Source: Psychromonas hadalis ATCC BAA-638 (GTDB lineage: Bacteria > Pseudomonadota > Gammaproteobacteria > Enterobacterales > Psychromonadaceae). From it: 50,695 nt of DNA. Location: assembly GCF_000420245.1 (NCBI RefSeq), contig NZ_ATUO01000005.1:1-50695 (forward strand), read 5' to 3'. The notes under the pieces are model-generated. The model saw nothing but the letters and a program-made list of their open reading frames with translations. It had not been told where the DNA came from and searched no databases. The translations under genes were made by a program, and so were the position numbers. Positions 36,360-50,363 of this stretch are shown in pieces; within the stretch, counting starts at the first letter, position 1; every line of letters begins with the position of its first letter.

Positions 36360-36375
36360 AGACTTCTAGATGGCT
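36360..36375. promoter_or_regulatory. Tandem MetJ-box-like site upstream of metA
   Basis: Two adjacent octamers, AGACTTCT (36360-36367) and AGATGGCT (36368-36375), match the met box AGACGTCT at seven and six of eight positions. They end 33 bases before the metA start chosen here. Tandem boxes are what MetJ needs for cooperative repression by S-adenosylmethionine. Confidence 0.6.
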
Positions 36376-36408
36376 AAATTAGAAAAATTAACATTTATGG
36401 AGTTGCTT

Positions 36409-37326
36409 ATGCCTATTCGTATCCCCGATGATCTGCCCGCCACAGGAATTTTAAAATCTGAAAATATTTTTACCATTTCAGAATCTCGTGCAAGCCATCA
36501 ACATATTCGTCCTCTACGTGTTTTAATTTTAAATTTAATGCCTAAAAAAATAGAGACAGAAACGCAGTTGATGCGTTTGCTTTCTAATACACCGCTACAG
36601 GTTGATGTTGAGTTAGTACGTGTTGATGCGCGTGCGTCACGCAATACACCGCAGGAGCACCTTGACAAATTTTATGGTGATTTTGAGCGTGTTAAAAGTC
36701 AAAAATGGGATGGCTTTATTATCACAGGTGCCCCACTGGGAAAAATTCCTTTTGAAGATGTTTATTACTGGGAGAAGTTCAAAGAGATTGTTGATTGGTC
36801 GCATCATAATGTTACCTCAACCCTCTTTTTATGCTGGGCTGCACAAGCGGCACTGACCCATCTTTTTGATATTAAAAGAGAAACACGTGAAACGAAGCTT
36901 TCAGGAATTTACAAACATAATACCTATAACCATCATCATCCTTTAGTGCGTGGTTTTGATGACCAATTCTGGGCACCACTCTCGCGTTTTGCTGAATTTG
37001 ATTCTAAAAAAATAAAAGCCAACAGCGATTTAACTATTTTTGCAGATAATGCTGAAACCGGGGTTTATCTGGCTGCCAGCCCTGATTGTCGTCAGGTATT
37101 TATCTCTGGTCATCCTGAATATGATGCTAATACATTAAATAATGAATACTTACGTGATTTGGATGGCGGGACTAATCCTAATTTGCCTGTGGATTATTAT
37201 CCAGAAGACGATGAGAACCAAATTCCGCGTGCAAAATGGCGGAGTCACGGTAACTTGTTGTATAGTAACTGGTTAAATTATTGTGTTTACCAAGTAACGC
37301 CATATGACTTAAATGAGTTGAAATAA
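36409..37326 (+). CDS. metA: Homoserine O-succinyltransferase
   Basis: First committed step of methionine synthesis: acylates homoserine from succinyl-CoA, in the cytoplasm. The ATG at 36409 ([11 protein letters not shown]) is preferred over an in-frame ATG at 36370. It has GGAG six bases upstream, gives 305 aa and places the catalytic residues at the known E. coli positions Cys142 (LFLCWAA), His235 and Glu237 (SGHPEYD). The earlier ATG would lie inside the MetJ-like site. Some family members use acetyl-CoA; the choice cannot be made safely by eye. Followed by a weak hairpin. Confidence 0.95.
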
Positions 37327-37590
37327 AAACTGTGACATAGATTAAAAAACACCTTAAAAGCGTCTTTTTAGACTGGCATAAATAAGTAGTCATCCTACAC
37401 TTAATAGTAATTAAAGCGTTACAAAGGAGAATAAAATTAGTACCTAGCACAGTGATAAATGAATAGCCTTAGTCGTTAACATATAAGAGGCAATTGGTAA
37501 CTTAAGAAGTTCGACATAATTGATGCAACTTCAACGCACTAAAATAGTGTTTATTACCAAAGGATTTTATTACTGATAATCTAAAACAGA

Positions 37591-37630
37591 GATGGAGGCA
37601 TTGTTATTACTTCTTATCAGTTTTTAGTAA
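37591..37630 (+). repeat. Imperfect direct repeat, copy 1 (metH upstream region)
   Basis: GATGGAGG followed, after a variable spacer, by TTACTTC and TATCAGTTTTTAG. The same order recurs at 37766-37808, with 20 of 22 matches over the core (ACTTC to TTTAGNAA). Confidence 0.6.
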
Positions 37631-37647
37631 GGCAAACACCCAACGAG

Positions 37648-37682
37648 GCGTTACCAAGGTAACGCATCCGCTCAACGGAGCG
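37648..37682 (+). ncRNA. Tandem hairpins, candidate structured RNA
   Basis: GCGTTACC (37648-37655) pairs perfectly with GGTAACGC (37658-37665); in practice the inner pairs would open to a six-base loop. Next, CGCTC (37669-37673) pairs with GAGCG (37678-37682) around AACG. The segment is GC-rich against AT-rich surroundings, and a T run begins at 37695. It is compatible with the 3' half of a small RNA or a riboswitch domain. No known family was recognised. Confidence 0.4.
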
Positions 37683-37765
37683 ATCGGGAAAGGTCTTTTT
37701 TATTTTGGTGGTTTAGTCCAATAAAATGACTGAAATAAAATGCTGGTTGTCGATTCAACTTTCAA

Positions 37766-37808
37766 ATGGAGGGATAAGATATTTTTACTTCATATCAGTT
37801 TTTAGAAA
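37766..37808 (+). repeat. Imperfect direct repeat, copy 2 (metH upstream region)
   Basis: AATGGAGGGATAAG then TTTTTACTTCATATCAG and TTTTTAGAAA. It repeats the element at 37591-37630 in the same orientation, about 175 bases downstream, and runs straight into the 5' arm of the terminator-like structure at 37806. Confidence 0.6.
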
Positions 37809-37881
37809 AGAGTAATCAACTTTAGGAGTTTGTTTTATTAAGCAACTCATCGCCAAATTGGCATATTAGTTACTCTTTTTT
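37806..37881 (+). terminator. Branched terminator-like structure
   Basis: The 5' arm AAAAGAGTAA (37806-37815) pairs with TTACTCTTTT (37870-37879) and ends in a T run. The 54-base interior can form two more small stems (GAGTT with AACTC, GCCAA with TTGGC). It looks like a terminator with a large, possibly regulated, loop. Confidence 0.5.
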
Positions 37882-38119
37882 GTTATGTGATAGTCGATCA
37901 TAAAGTAAATGGTTTTTAAGTTTTACTGTGGAATTTTCCGTTTTATACGGATTTAGTGTCTTTGGTTTTTAAGCCTGTTTTTTGTAAACACTTTGACGTT
38001 CTTAAGTTTATGTTTATAGGGATGATGGAGTAGCAATACTAATGGAAGGTGAAAGACCGTGAAACTGTAAAATAGAATCACTGTTTATAATGATGACATT
38101 ACCCAAGCTCTTTTAAGAT

Positions 38120-38149
38120 AAAGCGAACTGTAATTAGTTCGCTTTTTTT
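38120..38149 (+). terminator. Rho-independent terminator upstream of metH
   Basis: A ten-base-pair stem AAAGCGAACT/AGTTCGCTTT (38120-38129 with 38136-38145), loop GTAATT, then seven T in total (38143-38149). It sits 140 bases before the metH start and does not follow any protein gene. It ends either an upstream small RNA or an attenuated metH leader. Confidence 0.8.
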
Positions 38150-38188
38150 ATGCCTAATTTTTAGCCCTCTTTTTTCTCATGTTGTTCA

Positions 38189-38201
38189 TGACAATATTTC
38201 A
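38189..38201. promoter_or_regulatory. MetR-like site upstream of metH
   Basis: TGACAATATTTCA differs by one base from the MetR pattern TGAA-N5-TTCA and lies 88 bases before the metH start. MetR activates metH in enteric bacteria. A single degenerate match, so tentative. Confidence 0.4.
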
Positions 38202-38289
38202 ATTTATCACTTCAGTTACCGAAATACTGACTGTTACTTTTATGTTAAACTGCGCCCTCTATTTTATGAATAAAATTGTAAGGGATACT

Positions 38290-41200
38290 ATGTCAGCCAT
38301 CGATCGCAGCGCATTAATTAAATCACAGTTACAGAAACATATTCTGCTTATTGATGGTGGCATGGGCACCATGATTCAAGATTATAAACTTGAAGAGGAA
38401 GATTATCGTGGTAGCCGTTTTGCCGATTGGAAATGTGACGTAAAGGGTAATAATGATTTACTGGTTTTAAGTCAGCCAGAAATTATTGAAAATATTCATA
38501 AAGAGTACCTTGATGCAGGAGCAGATATTCTTGAAACAAACACCTTCAATGCCACTACGATTGCCATGGCAGATTACCAGATGGAATCACTCTCGGCAGA
38601 AATTAACCGTGAAGCCGCACGTATTGCACGTAAAGTGGCCGATGCCAAAACGGCTGAAACGCCAGATCGCCCGCGTTTTGTGGCTGGCGTTTTAGGACCC
38701 ACAAATCGTACTTGTTCTATCTCTCCGGATGTCAACGATCCCGCTTTTCGTAATGTGAGTTTTGATGAATTAGTCGAAGCTTATACAGAATCTACACTGG
38801 CTTTGATTGAAGGTGGCTGTGACCTGATTCTGGTCGAAACTATTTTTGATACCTTAAATGCAAAAGCCGCTGTTTTTGCCATTAGCGGTGTGTTTGAAAA
38901 GTTGGGTTACAAATTACCGGTGATGATATCGGGTACTATCACTGATGCCTCGGGGCGTACTCTGTCTGGACAAACAACCGAAGCATTTTATAACTCATTG
39001 CGTCATATTGAGCCGATCTCATTTGGTTTGAACTGTGCGTTAGGCCCTGATGAACTGCGCCAATATGTCGCCGAGCTGTCGCGTATCTCAGAAACGTTTG
39101 TTTCTGCACATCCTAATGCAGGTCTGCCTAATGCTTTTGGGGAATATGATTTAGAAGCTGATGAGATGGCGGAACATATTAAAGAGTGGGCGGAAAGTGG
39201 CTTTCTCAATTTAGTGGGTGGCTGTTGTGGCACCACGCCTGCGCATATCAAAGCGATGTATGATGCGGTTGAAGGGGTGACTCCACGTGCTATTCCTGAG
39301 ATAGAGGTTGCATGTAGACTGAGTGGTCTCGAAGCGTTAACCATCCGCAAAGACTCACTGTTTCAAAATGTCGGTGAACGTACCAATGTAACGGGTTCAG
39401 CACGTTTTAAACGTTTGATTAAAGATGAATTATACGATGAAGCGTTAGATGTCGCGTTACATCAAGTGAAAGCGGGCGCTGATATTATTGACATTAATAT
39501 GGATGAAGCGATGCTTGATTCATTGTATGTGATGAAACGTTTCTTAAACCTCTGTGCCTCTGAGCCAGATATCTCTCGTGTGCCTATTATGGTCGATTCC
39601 TCTAAATGGGAAATTTTAGAGGAAGGGCTGAAATGTGTGCAAGGTAAAGGTATTGTTAACTCTATTAGCATGAAAGAGGGGGTTGATAACTTTATTCGTC
39701 AGGCCACCCTGATTCGTCGTTATGGTTTTGCCATGATAGTGATGGCTTTTGATGAAAAAGGGCAAGCCGATACCCGCGCGCGTAAGTTTGAAATTTGTAA
39801 AAAATCTTACGATATTCTGGTCAACCAAGTGGGTTTCCCACCCGAAGATATTATTTTTGATCCTAATATTTTTGCCGTTGCCACGGGAATTGAAGAGCAC
39901 AATAACTACGCGGTTGATTTTATTGAAGCGGTAAAAGATATTAAAGAAAACTTACCACATGCGATGGTGTCGGGCGGTGTTTCTAATGTGTCATTCTCCT
40001 TCCGTGGTAATAACCCCGTGCGTGAAGCGATTCATGCGGTATTCCTCTATTACTGTGTGAAAAATGGCATGGACATGGGTATTGTTAATGCTGCACAATT
40101 AGCAATTTATGATGATATTCCCGCGGATTTAAAAGAGGCAGTTGAAGCCGTTGTTTTGAATAAAAGTCTCACCGCAACCGATGATCTACTCGAAATTGCA
40201 GAGAAATTTCGTAATGCAGGGCAAGAAAAAGTAGACGATGGTAAAGCGCTTTTATGGCGTGAACTGCCTGTTAATGAGCGAATTGCCCATGCGTTAGTGA
40301 AAGGTATTACTGAATTTATTGTCGAGGACACCGAAGTTGCTCGCCAGAATGCCGATAGACCGATTGAGGTGATTGAAGGCCCGTTAATGGATGGCATGAA
40401 TATCGTTGGTGACCTATTTGGTGAAGGTAAAATGTTCCTGCCACAAGTGGTAAAATCGGCACGGGTTATGAAACAAGCAGTGGCTTACCTCAACCCTTAT
40501 ATCGAATTAACCAAAGAGAAGGGCGCAACCAACGGCAAAATCGTCATGGCGACGGTAAAAGGTGATGTACACGATATTGGGAAAAATATTGTTGGTGTTA
40601 TTTTACAGTGTAATAACTATGAAATAATCGATTTAGGCGTGATGGTATCGACGGAAAAAATCATCAAAACTGCAATTGCTGAAAAAGCAGATATGATTGG
40701 TTTGTCTGGTCTTATCACGCCATCACTTGATGAGATGGTTTATGTGGCCAAAGAGATGCAACGCCAAGGGTTAAAACTGCCGTTATTGATTGGTGGAGCA
40801 ACGACTTCCAAAGCGCATACCGCAGTGAAAATAGAGCAAAACTACGATGAACCCGTGGTTTATGTTTCTAATGCATCTCGTGCGGTGGGTGTTTGTCAGC
40901 TATTATTAAACCCTAAAACTAAACCTGATTTTGTGGCGAAATTGGCACTCGATTATGATCGTGTACGTGTTCAATATGCCAATAAACGTCCGCGTAGCAA
41001 GCCAGTTTCACTGGCGCGTGCGCGCTTTAATTGCGCTAAAATTGACTGGAAAAATTATGTACCACCGACACCTAATAAACTCGGTGTGCAGGTCATTAAA
41101 AAAATGTCGATTAAAATATTGCGTGAATATATCGACTGGACGCCGTTCTTCATGACATGGGGTTTAGCGGGGAAATATCCACGTATATTAACCGATGAAG

Positions 41201-47120: not shown

Positions 47121-50100
47121 ATGCCTAAGATCACTCAGCAAGACATTTCCACCAGTTTTGGTCGCAACATTATCGACCGTGGCACTCGCTATTTTAAAGA
47201 GAGTCGCGTCCTGTCTTGTGAGTTTGATGACGAAAAAAGTAAGCTTAGTGGCAGTGTAAAAGGGGGATCTGAAACCCCATACCAAACCAGTGCGACTATT
47301 AAACCCTCTAATAAGGGCGGGTTTATTATTCACAGTACTTGCTCATGCCCTGTGGGGTGGAACTGTAAACATGCGGTTGCGCTATTACTTGCTTATCAAG
47401 CAGATACCCCTAATTATAATATTGAAAACAGTTATCAAACTTGGTTTGAGATGTTGCAGGGGCAACTCGATAAAAAACAACCGACTGTGGTCGCAAGTGC
47501 TTATCAAGGTTATTTCCGACTCTCTTTCATTAAAACCGCTTATAACCATGCATTACAATATATTCAGGTCGAATATGGCTCAGTGCGTTTTCTTAAAAGT
47601 GAAAATGTCAGTGTTTTTGCTGAGAAAGACCTTATCTCTGTGGTTGACAATGAAACATGGATGGAGAGTTACAAGTGGGTAAAGCCTGAAGATATTAATA
47701 TCTTACAACTGTTACTTTCTAAAGAGGGACGGGTTAATAAGTTAGCTAAAACCACTATTCATACCGAACATGATCAACTCGCACTACAAAAAATATTAGC
47801 GACTGGGCGCTGTTTTTGGTCTGAGATGGCATTGCCTGTTGTGGCTGCGGAGCCTAAAGTATTACAACTAAATTGGCAGAATGAAGAGGAGCTTAAACAG
47901 CTTCAATTGAATTTAACCGACAGTGAAAACTGGCTACTTATTCCGACACCAACTCCCTATTATATTGATACTGACAGCGGTTTTATTGGTGAGATAGAAA
48001 GCGAGTTTGATAGAGAGTGGATCTTATCACTTATTCAGACGCCACCGCTTGCGGCCGAGCAGTGTGAACATTTCACCGAGCAAGTTTCGCTGCGTTTTCC
48101 GCAGACTGTTTTGCCAAATCCTATCGCTTATCAAGCGCGTGAATTAGATGCTCCGCTGAAAATAGAGTTCAGTTTAAAAAGTAAAATGGTTAAAGATAAA
48201 CCGTTGTTTATTGCACGTCTGTCTTTCTTCTATGGTGAATTGCAACTTGATCCCAGCATACTTGATGAAAAAAGCCGTGATCAATTTATGTTTAACAATG
48301 AGATTGTCACTATTAATCGTGATGTTGAAGCGGAGGTTGTTGCGCTACAGGAGTTTGACCAACTGTGCTTGTTAGATCTGTTTCTCTACGATGATAAACA
48401 GCCAAAATCAAAAATGTTATTAGGTATTTTACCTCCTGAATTAGGCGGTTCTCAACAGTTTCAGTGGCTCTCTTTTTTAACGGCTCACAAAGCACGTTTA
48501 GAGGTGTTGGGTTGGCAGTTTAATATCGCCAATGATCTGGTCTTAGAGAGTGAGCAGATTGATAGTATTGACATTGCAATTTCAGAACAGGGGAACTGGT
48601 TTGATTTAGGTGTTTCCATTGAGGTTGAAGGTAAACGTATTGAGCTATTACCGCTGTTACTTGAGTGGTTACGTAGCAATGAAAGTTGGCAACAAAACAA
48701 TTTTGATATCTTATTAGCGCAAGCAAATGGTCGTCCGCTACGTGTGAAACGTAGCTCTATTCAGCCTATTCTCTCTATTTTACAAGAGTTAGGTGAAGTG
48801 AATAATGATCATATTAAACTACCACAAAGCCAAGCAGCACTGCTTGCGCAACTTCCTGAGATTAATAAATGGGTGGGTGGCAGTCATGTGAAAGCGCTGG
48901 CTGATAAGTTAGCTACCTTTACGGGCATTGAAACCGTTGAAGTGCCAGAGGGATTACAAGCGACACTGCGAGATTATCAATTGACGGGTTTGAACTGGTT
49001 GGTATTTCTTAATGAGTATGGATTTTCTGGTGTACTTGCGGATGATATGGGCTTGGGTAAAACAGTTCAAGCATTGGCTTATCTGCTTTACAAAAAACAG
49101 CATCAACAACTTAATGAGCCTGCGATTGTTATTTGCCCAACGTCGTTGGTGGGTAACTGGTTAAATGAAACAAAGAAATTTACCCCGGATCTGAATGTGC
49201 TGGTTTTACATGGCGCAGATCGTCATCAGCATTTTGCAAAAATTACCGAGTATGATTTAGTGATCACCACTTATCCGTTAGTGGGTCGTGATTTTGCACA
49301 ATTGGAAGCGATTACTTTTTCAGATCTTATTTTGGATGAAGCGCAAACGATTAAAAATCCATTGGCAAAAATGACTAAAAGTATCAAACAGTTAAATGCA
49401 AAGCAGCGGTTATGTTTAACGGGTACGCCGATGGAAAATCATCTTGGTGAATTGTGGTCACTGTTTGACTTCTTAATGCCGGGATTTTTGGGCTCGCATA
49501 CTACTTTTAACCGTTTTTACCGTAAAGGCATTGAAGGTGAGGGTAATGTGCAGATACAGGAGTGGTTGATTCAAAAAACCCAGCCATTTTTACTGCGTCG
49601 TACTAAAGATGAAGTGGCGAAAGAGTTACCTGCGAAAACCGAGATCATTCATAAAGTGATATTACCCAATGATCAGCGCACCTTGTATGAAAGCATTCGT
49701 ATTACCATGGAAGCAAAAGTACGTGATCTGCTCAAAGAAAAAGGCATGGCGCGTAGTCGTATTGAATTTTTAGATGCGCTGCTTAAACTTCGTCAAGCGT
49801 GTTGTGATCCTCGCTTGGTAAAATTAGAACATGCACGGGGCATTAAAGGCTCTGCAAAATTAGATTTCTTAATGGAGATTGTGCCTGAGATGATTGAAGA
49901 GGGAAGACGTATCTTAATCTTCTCTCAGTTTGCCACTATGTTAGGGCTGATTGAGCAGGAACTTAATGAAAAAGGTATTGAGTTTGTAAAACTCACAGGG
50001 CAAACACGTAACCGCACCGAGATTATTGATAGGTTCCAAACGGGTGAAGTGCCTGTGTTCCTTATCTCATTAAAAGCGGGAGGCGTAGGTTTGAACCTTA

Positions 50101-50363
50101 CCGCCGCCGATACAGTGATTCATTATGATCCGTGGTGGAATCCTGCGGTTGAAAATCAAGCAACAGACAGAGCATATCGCATTGGTCAGGATAAGCCTGT
50201 ATTTGTGTATAAACTAATCTGTGAAGAAACCGTTGAAGAGCGTGTACTTGCGCTACAAGCTCGTAAGCAAAAATTGGCTGATAGCGTCTATGGTAAAGAG
50301 CAGGAGGAAAAATATGCACCCGATAACAGTGATGCATTGCTGAAGTTGTTTGAACGTTATTGA
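47121..50363 (+). CDS. SNF2-family helicase-like ATPase with SWIM zinc finger
   Basis: A 1080 aa DNA-dependent ATPase of the SNF2/RapA superfamily. An N-terminal SWIM finger CSCPVGWNCKH (Cys74, Cys76, Cys82, His84) is followed by a long middle domain of unclear role. From about residue 615 comes the SNF2 motor: LRDYQLTGLNWL, motif I DDMGLGKT near 640, motif II DEAQ, then LTGTPMEN. The C-terminal helicase half has LKAGGVGLNLTAAD and motif VI QATDRAYRIGQ near 1015. It probably remodels DNA-protein complexes. The ATG at 47121 has no clear ribosome site. The gene looks intact and stands alone between IS remnants. Confidence 0.93.
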   Translation: MPKITQQDISTSFGRNIIDRGTRYFKESRVLSCEFDDEKSKLSGSVKGGSETPYQTSATIKPSNKGGFIIHSTCSCPVGWNCKHAVALLLAYQADTPNYNIENSYQTWFEMLQGQLDKKQPTVVASAYQGYFRLSFIKTAYNHALQYIQVEYGSVRFLKSENVSVFAEKDLISVVDNETWMESYKWVKPEDINILQLLLSKEGRVNKLAKTTIHTEHDQLALQKILATGRCFWSEMALPVVAAEPKVLQLNWQNEEELKQLQLNLTDSENWLLIPTPTPYYIDTDSGFIGEIESEFDREWILSLIQTPPLAAEQCEHFTEQVSLRFPQTVLPNPIAYQARELDAPLKIEFSLKSKMVKDKPLFIARLSFFYGELQLDPSILDEKSRDQFMFNNEIVTINRDVEAEVVALQEFDQLCLLDLFLYDDKQPKSKMLLGILPPELGGSQQFQWLSFLTAHKARLEVLGWQFNIANDLVLESEQIDSIDIAISEQGNWFDLGVSIEVEGKRIELLPLLLEWLRSNESWQQNNFDILLAQANGRPLRVKRSSIQPILSILQELGEVNNDHIKLPQSQAALLAQLPEINKWVGGSHVKALADKLATFTGIETVEVPEGLQATLRDYQLTGLNWLVFLNEYGFSGVLADDMGLGKTVQALAYLLYKKQHQQLNEPAIVICPTSLVGNWLNETKKFTPDLNVLVLHGADRHQHFAKITEYDLVITTYPLVGRDFAQLEAITFSDLILDEAQTIKNPLAKMTKSIKQLNAKQRLCLTGTPMENHLGELWSLFDFLMPGFLGSHTTFNRFYRKGIEGEGNVQIQEWLIQKTQPFLLRRTKDEVAKELPAKTEIIHKVILPNDQRTLYESIRITMEAKVRDLLKEKGMARSRIEFLDALLKLRQACCDPRLVKLEHARGIKGSAKLDFLMEIVPEMIEEGRRILIFSQFATMLGLIEQELNEKGIEFVKLTGQTRNRTEIIDRFQTGEVPVFLISLKAGGVGLNLTAADTVIHYDPWWNPAVENQATDRAYRIGQDKPVFVYKLICEETVEERVLALQARKQKLADSVYGKEQEEKYAPDNSDALLKLFERY

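Follow-up and report, generated by a model that had tools for sequence, protein, structure and literature searches.

What occupies the 963 bases that separate metA from metH in Psychromonas hadalis? In the window analyzed here, a contiguous stretch of 50,695 nucleotides, metA (36370-37326, Pfam HTS) is followed by this gap, which we read on the same strand as metH (start ATG at 38290, Pfam B12-dependent methionine synthase). A first-pass annotation had described the gap as a structured region devoid of genes, and had proposed that it encodes one or more small RNAs or a leader controlling metH by attenuation. The only listed open reading frame of at least 40 amino acids lying wholly within the gap is a 42-amino-acid frame on the minus strand, and no tRNA or tmRNA was found in the window. 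The elements listed in that annotation are likewise present in the sequence, namely the tandem hairpins at 37648-37682, the branched structure at 37806-37881, both copies of TGTTTATA and the terminator at 38120-38149. Two terminator-like sites occur in the region (0.4 expected), and at the DNA level it resembles the metA-metH gap of other genomes in the genus, its best match in relatives having an E-value of 9e-196. Single-sequence folding revealed a modest excess of structure over chance (z = -2.2 for 37560-37720, -2.1 for 37740-37890 and -2.3 for the whole region); since these values reach only about -2.2, the case for an RNA rests on comparison between genomes. From that comparison we conclude that a folded noncoding RNA composed of repeated modules is very probably encoded in the gap.

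Read 5' to 3' on the plus strand, the element consists of a promoter-like site, a variable 5' domain (D0), two modules (m1 and m2), a variable 3' domain (D3) and a common terminator. D0 (37426-37560) contains a GGAG (37426-37429), AATTAGTACCTAGCACAG and, in single folds, a three-way junction closed by the stem TTGGTAA/TTACCAA (37494-37500 with 37554-37560). The same type of fold is obtained in several genomes, and the domain is short or missing in four (G005, G022, G002 and G004); across genomes the putative closing stem takes the forms TTGGTAA/TTACCAA, CTGACAA/TTGTCAG and CTAACAAC/GTTGTTAG. Each module comprises a GGAGG-like motif, then a conserved U-rich stretch (commonest form ATTATTACTTCATATCAGTTTTTA), followed by two hairpins enclosed by a closing stem. 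Module m1 (37594-37701) has its GGAGG at 37594-37598, the conserved motif ATTACTTCTTATCAGTTTTTAG at 37606-37627 and a three-way junction in which the closing stem (37629-37633/37693-37697) encloses hairpins at 37648-37665 and 37669-37682. The corresponding parts of the three-way junction module m2 (37768-37881) are the GGAGG at 37768-37772, the motif at 37781-37805, the closing stem (37806-37816/37869-37879) and the hairpins P2 (37826-37830/37844-37848) and P3 (37852-37854/37860-37862). A U tract ends both modules in the window. The conserved motif differs by clade, m2 carrying ACTTCATATCAG in one and ACGTTTTATCAT in the other, and m1 has no clear U tract in eight of the nine genomes of the clade to which the window does not belong.

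Behind the modules lies D3, delimited by alignment (37882-38119, plus strand). The small hairpins AGTA-GCAA-TACT and GGT-GAAAG-ACC of the first-pass annotation are present in the window and are not a feature of the genus: D3 is long, with the ATGGAGTA block, in nine of the 22 aligned genomes, and shorter, lacking this block, in the other 13. The unit is closed by an intrinsic terminator, AAAGCGAACT-GTAATT-AGTTCGCTTTTTTT (38120-38149, plus strand), and a similar terminator occurs in the 22 aligned genomes as well as in G007, which lost the RNA. In the element of G021 (L042) an insert in the terminator loop contains an inverted repeat of its own (CTAGTG...CACTAG). Elsewhere in the genus (L002; L014, L016, L017, L019) there are further short matches to the terminator region (AAAGCGAACT...AGTTCGCTTT), perhaps representatives of a shared terminator type.

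The imperfect direct repeat annotated at 37591-37630 and 37766-37808 is present as well, and a covariance model confirmed that its copies are homologous. We cut both modules from 22 genomes (19 metA-metH gaps plus G001, G004 and G011) and trained the model, R1, only on the 22 m2 copies. R1 detected m1, which lay outside the training set, at E < 0.01 in 13 of the 22 genomes and at E <= 1 in 21, while the same search returned two further matches outside the modules (E = 0.17 and 0.98). Within the genome of the window, the two module sites scored 115.2 and 41.1 bits and a third match had an E-value of 8.8. Module m1 and module m2 are thus homologous tandem copies. Extra copies elsewhere in relatives were also considered; the four weak matches inspected resemble terminators, coding sequence or chance.

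The closing stem of m2 covaries. It was found by a direct helix search and then put into the model; RNAalifold had missed it on the MAFFT alignment A1 because the 3' strand is misaligned there. A stem of 9-18 pairs with at most one mismatch is present in all 23 genomes (the 22 plus G017), and in 20 of them it surpasses 99% of shuffled strands. When strands were swapped between 15 representatives, a comparison independent of A1, cognate strands scored 28.9 versus 17.7 +- 1.4 for swapped ones, and none of 20,000 permutations attained the cognate score. On the model-fitted alignment, which biases pair counts towards the model, both sides had changed in 13 of 21 pairs, and the covariation score was 0.377 compared to 0.201 +- 0.016 for shuffled alignments and 0.075-0.147 with slid partners. 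For m1, MAFFT alignments gave covariation scores of 0.369 versus 0.262 +- 0.024 in 13 genomes and 0.336 versus 0.171 +- 0.024 in nine; in the same 13 genomes, the number of pair types did not exceed that of shuffles (378/500 did as well) and changes on both sides were matched by 29/500. A GGAG-CUUC hairpin, proposed from one single fold, received no support from swaps between genomes, as the observed value was reached by 1,468 of 20,000 permutations within the window's clade (26 modules) and by 4,364 of 20,000 with the full set of 44.

Signals that could direct transcription flank the modules. A promoter-like site, CTGGCA-N17-TACACT (37373-37401, plus strand), has its best match 35-57 bases past the metA stop. 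With spacings of 16-18 allowed, the spacing is exactly 17 in all 20 metA-linked, RNA-bearing genomes, with 0-3 mismatches to a consensus derived from the same data on which it was scored; shuffled sequences have about four mismatches on average (minima 2-4), and next to metA in G007 and G017 there are four and five. A generic sigma-70 scan does not list this site, which counts against an RNA gene, and gave one other site in its place (5.0 expected). Transcription would start from this promoter just 3' of metA and end at the terminator before metH, and the likely transcript spans approximately 37408-38150.

Is this RNA a part of the methionine genes? MetA was found in 22 of the 24 genus genomes, and metH follows metA in 20 of these 22, with a gap of 767-1246 bases in 19 and of 196 bases in G007; in the other two, the contig ends (G001) or no metH lies nearby (G017). 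A partial second metA-like stretch (64 residues, 72% identity) was seen in G010 (C1:26156-26347, L045), which has a full metA as well. In 19 of the 20 loci with adjacent metA and metH, the RNA is found immediately upstream of metH in the same orientation, a position that it shares with the metH, SAM, SAH and cobalamin leader riboswitches and that would suit a cis-acting 5' leader controlling metH by attenuation, as initially proposed. However, the RNA also occurs INDEPENDENCE from methionine genes. Neither MetA nor MetH has a match in G004 and G011, and the two modules are retained there, flanked by genes for a sugar PTS and an SNF2-type helicase and just upstream of the latter (L013/L021, L015). 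G011 is a single contig, 99% complete, and the gene absences in G004 rest on an assembly that is 79% complete. In the window, an SNF2-type helicase gene is located at 47121-50360, 9 kb downstream of the RNA, and a simple history for G004 and G011 would be that the methionine genes were lost around a retained RNA. In G017, a fragmented assembly, the RNA, metA and metH lie on three different contigs. Conversely, G007 lost the RNA and kept a terminator and approximately 150 bases adjoining metH. The RNA is therefore independent of metA and metH, and its retention in relatives without both flanking genes suggests that it is a separate gene.

The region next to metH points the same way. Positions 38151-38289 (plus strand) lie behind the terminator and outside the RNA, correspond to the block kept in RNA-less G007 and probably hold metH's own promoter. 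An AT-rich conserved block, TTCATAATTTATAACAGAATATTTCAA, precedes metH in many relatives and is only partly recognizable in the window at 38151-38289; it could be a binding site for a methionine regulator. As no Rfam riboswitch family matches the locus either, and unlike a riboswitch the RNA persists without metH, we consider a metH leader very unlikely. Structure 5' of metH is thus not necessarily a leader of that gene.

Homologous regions in relatives, which the first-pass annotation recommended seeking, were found throughout the genus: R1 matched 23 of the 24 genus genomes searched, with G007 as the only one lacking the RNA. The other genomes searched in the order, 370 in number, gave no match, and in a class-wide sample of 369 the window's own genome was alone in doing so, in searches with stricter filters able to lose weak matches. 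A motif scan matched records named Psychromonas ossibalaenae, P. aquimarina, P. antarctica and Psychromonas sp. Urea-02u-13. G017, which was outside the training set, also has the module; it lies on a small contig, and its stem of 17 pairs is entirely different. As far as searched, the RNA is confined to the genus Psychromonas. Repeats that one genome has lost might be taken for a degenerate or selfish element without function, yet the stems bear compensatory changes, only the two modules score well in the window's own genome, and the four weak matches in relatives look like chance. Moreover, viral contigs contained no exact match to the motif pattern, and blastn of 37560-38160 against plasmids and phages returned nothing. 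We regard such an element as extremely improbable.

The GGA-containing motifs raise the possibility that the RNA sequesters CsrA or a similar GGA-binding protein, acting like CsrB or RsmY while being unrelated to them. Like CsrB, CsrC and RsmX-Y-Z, it is an intergenic RNA with repeated GGA-containing units. GGAG is enriched in 16 of 23 genomes, where no more than 8/200 dinucleotide shuffles have as many copies, and the window's element contains ten A.GGA motifs compared to 3.1 +- 1.5 expected, a number that none of 500 shuffles attained. However, A.GGA is enriched in only seven of the 23 genomes, including the window's (at most 5/200 shuffles), whereas in the other 16 at least 30/200 shuffles do as well, and the GGAG in P2 of m2 is partly in a stem. 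Nor is the RNA CsrB itself, since the CsrB model (RF00018) has matches elsewhere in the same genome and none here. Those CsrB-like RNAs are at C3:32475-32779 (L046; 77.5 bits, above the Rfam cut-off) and C132:4641-4844 (L047; 54.2 bits, below it). The CsrB above the cut-off has 21 GGA in 305 bases versus 14 in the 963 bases of the gap. A protein sponge of this kind thus appears unlikely to us.

A different use of the GGAGG motif would be as a ribosome binding site. According to this reading, GGAGG and an AUU start codon open tiny reading frames that run into the closing stem, and ribosomes that open or close the stem set termination. An ATT located 4-9 bases past GGAGG opens at least nine codons in 41 of the 44 modules, a count made on related and hence not independent sequences; the next best codon at this position, TAT, does so in 26 of 44, and shuffled tails in 6.3 on average (maximum 13/44). 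Against this, a canonical start codon stands behind GGAGG in just three of the 44 modules, and indels interrupt the m1 motif (a 1-base deletion in seven genomes, a 2-base insertion in two). Peptide coding in the ATT frame was not significant, with column permutations doing as well in 223 and 147 of 1000 cases for m2 and 67 of 1000 for m1, and with another frame scoring as well or better in 45, 165 and 56 of 1000. We judge a translated attenuator to be rather unlikely, and it is decidedly improbable that Shine-Dalgarno and AUU units start mini-ORFs such that initiation at AUU decides, module by module, whether junction or terminator forms. Initiation at AUU is monitored by initiation factor IF3, as for infC, and if the idea were true, these modules would amount to a transcribed sensor for the fidelity of initiation or for how many ribosomes are available.

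The reading that we favor, and think fairly likely, is that of a stand-alone gene for a trans-acting regulatory RNA that, within the genomes searched, is restricted to Psychromonas. Covariation of the stem, the repeats, conservation across the genus, the promoter-like site of fixed spacing, the enrichment of GGAG and the independence from metA and metH all count for an RNA gene. The same structure, promoter-like site, conservation and persistence without metA and metH, along with the terminator, support the earlier suggestion of one or more small RNAs, as judged from sequence. The core of the transcript would be the two homologous modules, preceded in some species by a similar 5' three-way junction that may be homologous to them. 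Because U tracts follow both modules in the window species, shorter RNAs of approximately 110-130 bases could be released. Like tandem sibling sRNAs, the RNA may act in trans, using the conserved stretch and the GGAG motifs to pair with target mRNAs or to contact an RNA-binding protein or 30S subunits.

Targets were sought by scanning for the complement of the motif with one mismatch allowed, which gave 72 matches, 17 of them the element itself and 55 elsewhere, compared to 24 for the backward pattern. There is therefore some excess of the complement outside the element. From the 30 of 72 sites that were fetched, the 21 outside the element included no target common to more than two genomes; five pairs, each from two genomes, shared their surroundings, and one of the 21 sites (L101) lies at most 20 bases from an ORF start. 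The lack of a consistent target, the absence of the RNA from G007 and the unclear U tract of m1 in the other clade count against a trans-acting RNA, and a motif that differs between clades is odd for a fixed seed.

How does this RNA relate to known families? Rfam 15 gave no match at the gathering cut-off in the window or in 19 further loci, in agreement with the first-pass annotation, which had assigned no family; with E-values up to 10 nothing credible appeared, the best in the region (E = 0.22) scoring far under that family's gathering score. No paper on this locus was found among the titles and abstract openings of a partial library. Psychromonas is absent from the available passages of PMC4239095 and PMC2965389; in those of PMC3228920 it is named twice, on metF2 and MetNIQ, and in those of PMC5471319 P. 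ingrahamii is named once, as a comparison genome. On sequence grounds, the predicted RNA is a new family outside the known Rfam families. With it, structured RNAs gain a well-supported family that is not yet listed and has homologous modules, and which offers a compact test case for the function of repeated, GGAGG-bearing three-way junctions.

Among large multi-domain bacterial noncoding RNAs are OLE, GOLLD and ROOL, which the Psychromonas RNA resembles in its length of several hundred bases, its multiple domains and its narrow distribution; it differs from them in consisting of modular repeats, in having no match to them and in that no linkage to phages or plasmids was found. The closest likeness is presumably to the tandem sibling sRNAs of gammaproteobacteria, such as OmrA/OmrB, Qrr and PrrF1/F2. 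Unlike these, the Psychromonas RNA has no Rfam match, a three-way junction where they have a single terminator hairpin, just one promoter-like site at its front, a GGAGG-like motif in every module and no clear U tract behind m1 in most of the other clade. What it has in common with them are adjacent homologous copies within a single intergenic region, 3' ends that resemble terminators in the window species, and a conserved stretch that is possibly unpaired.
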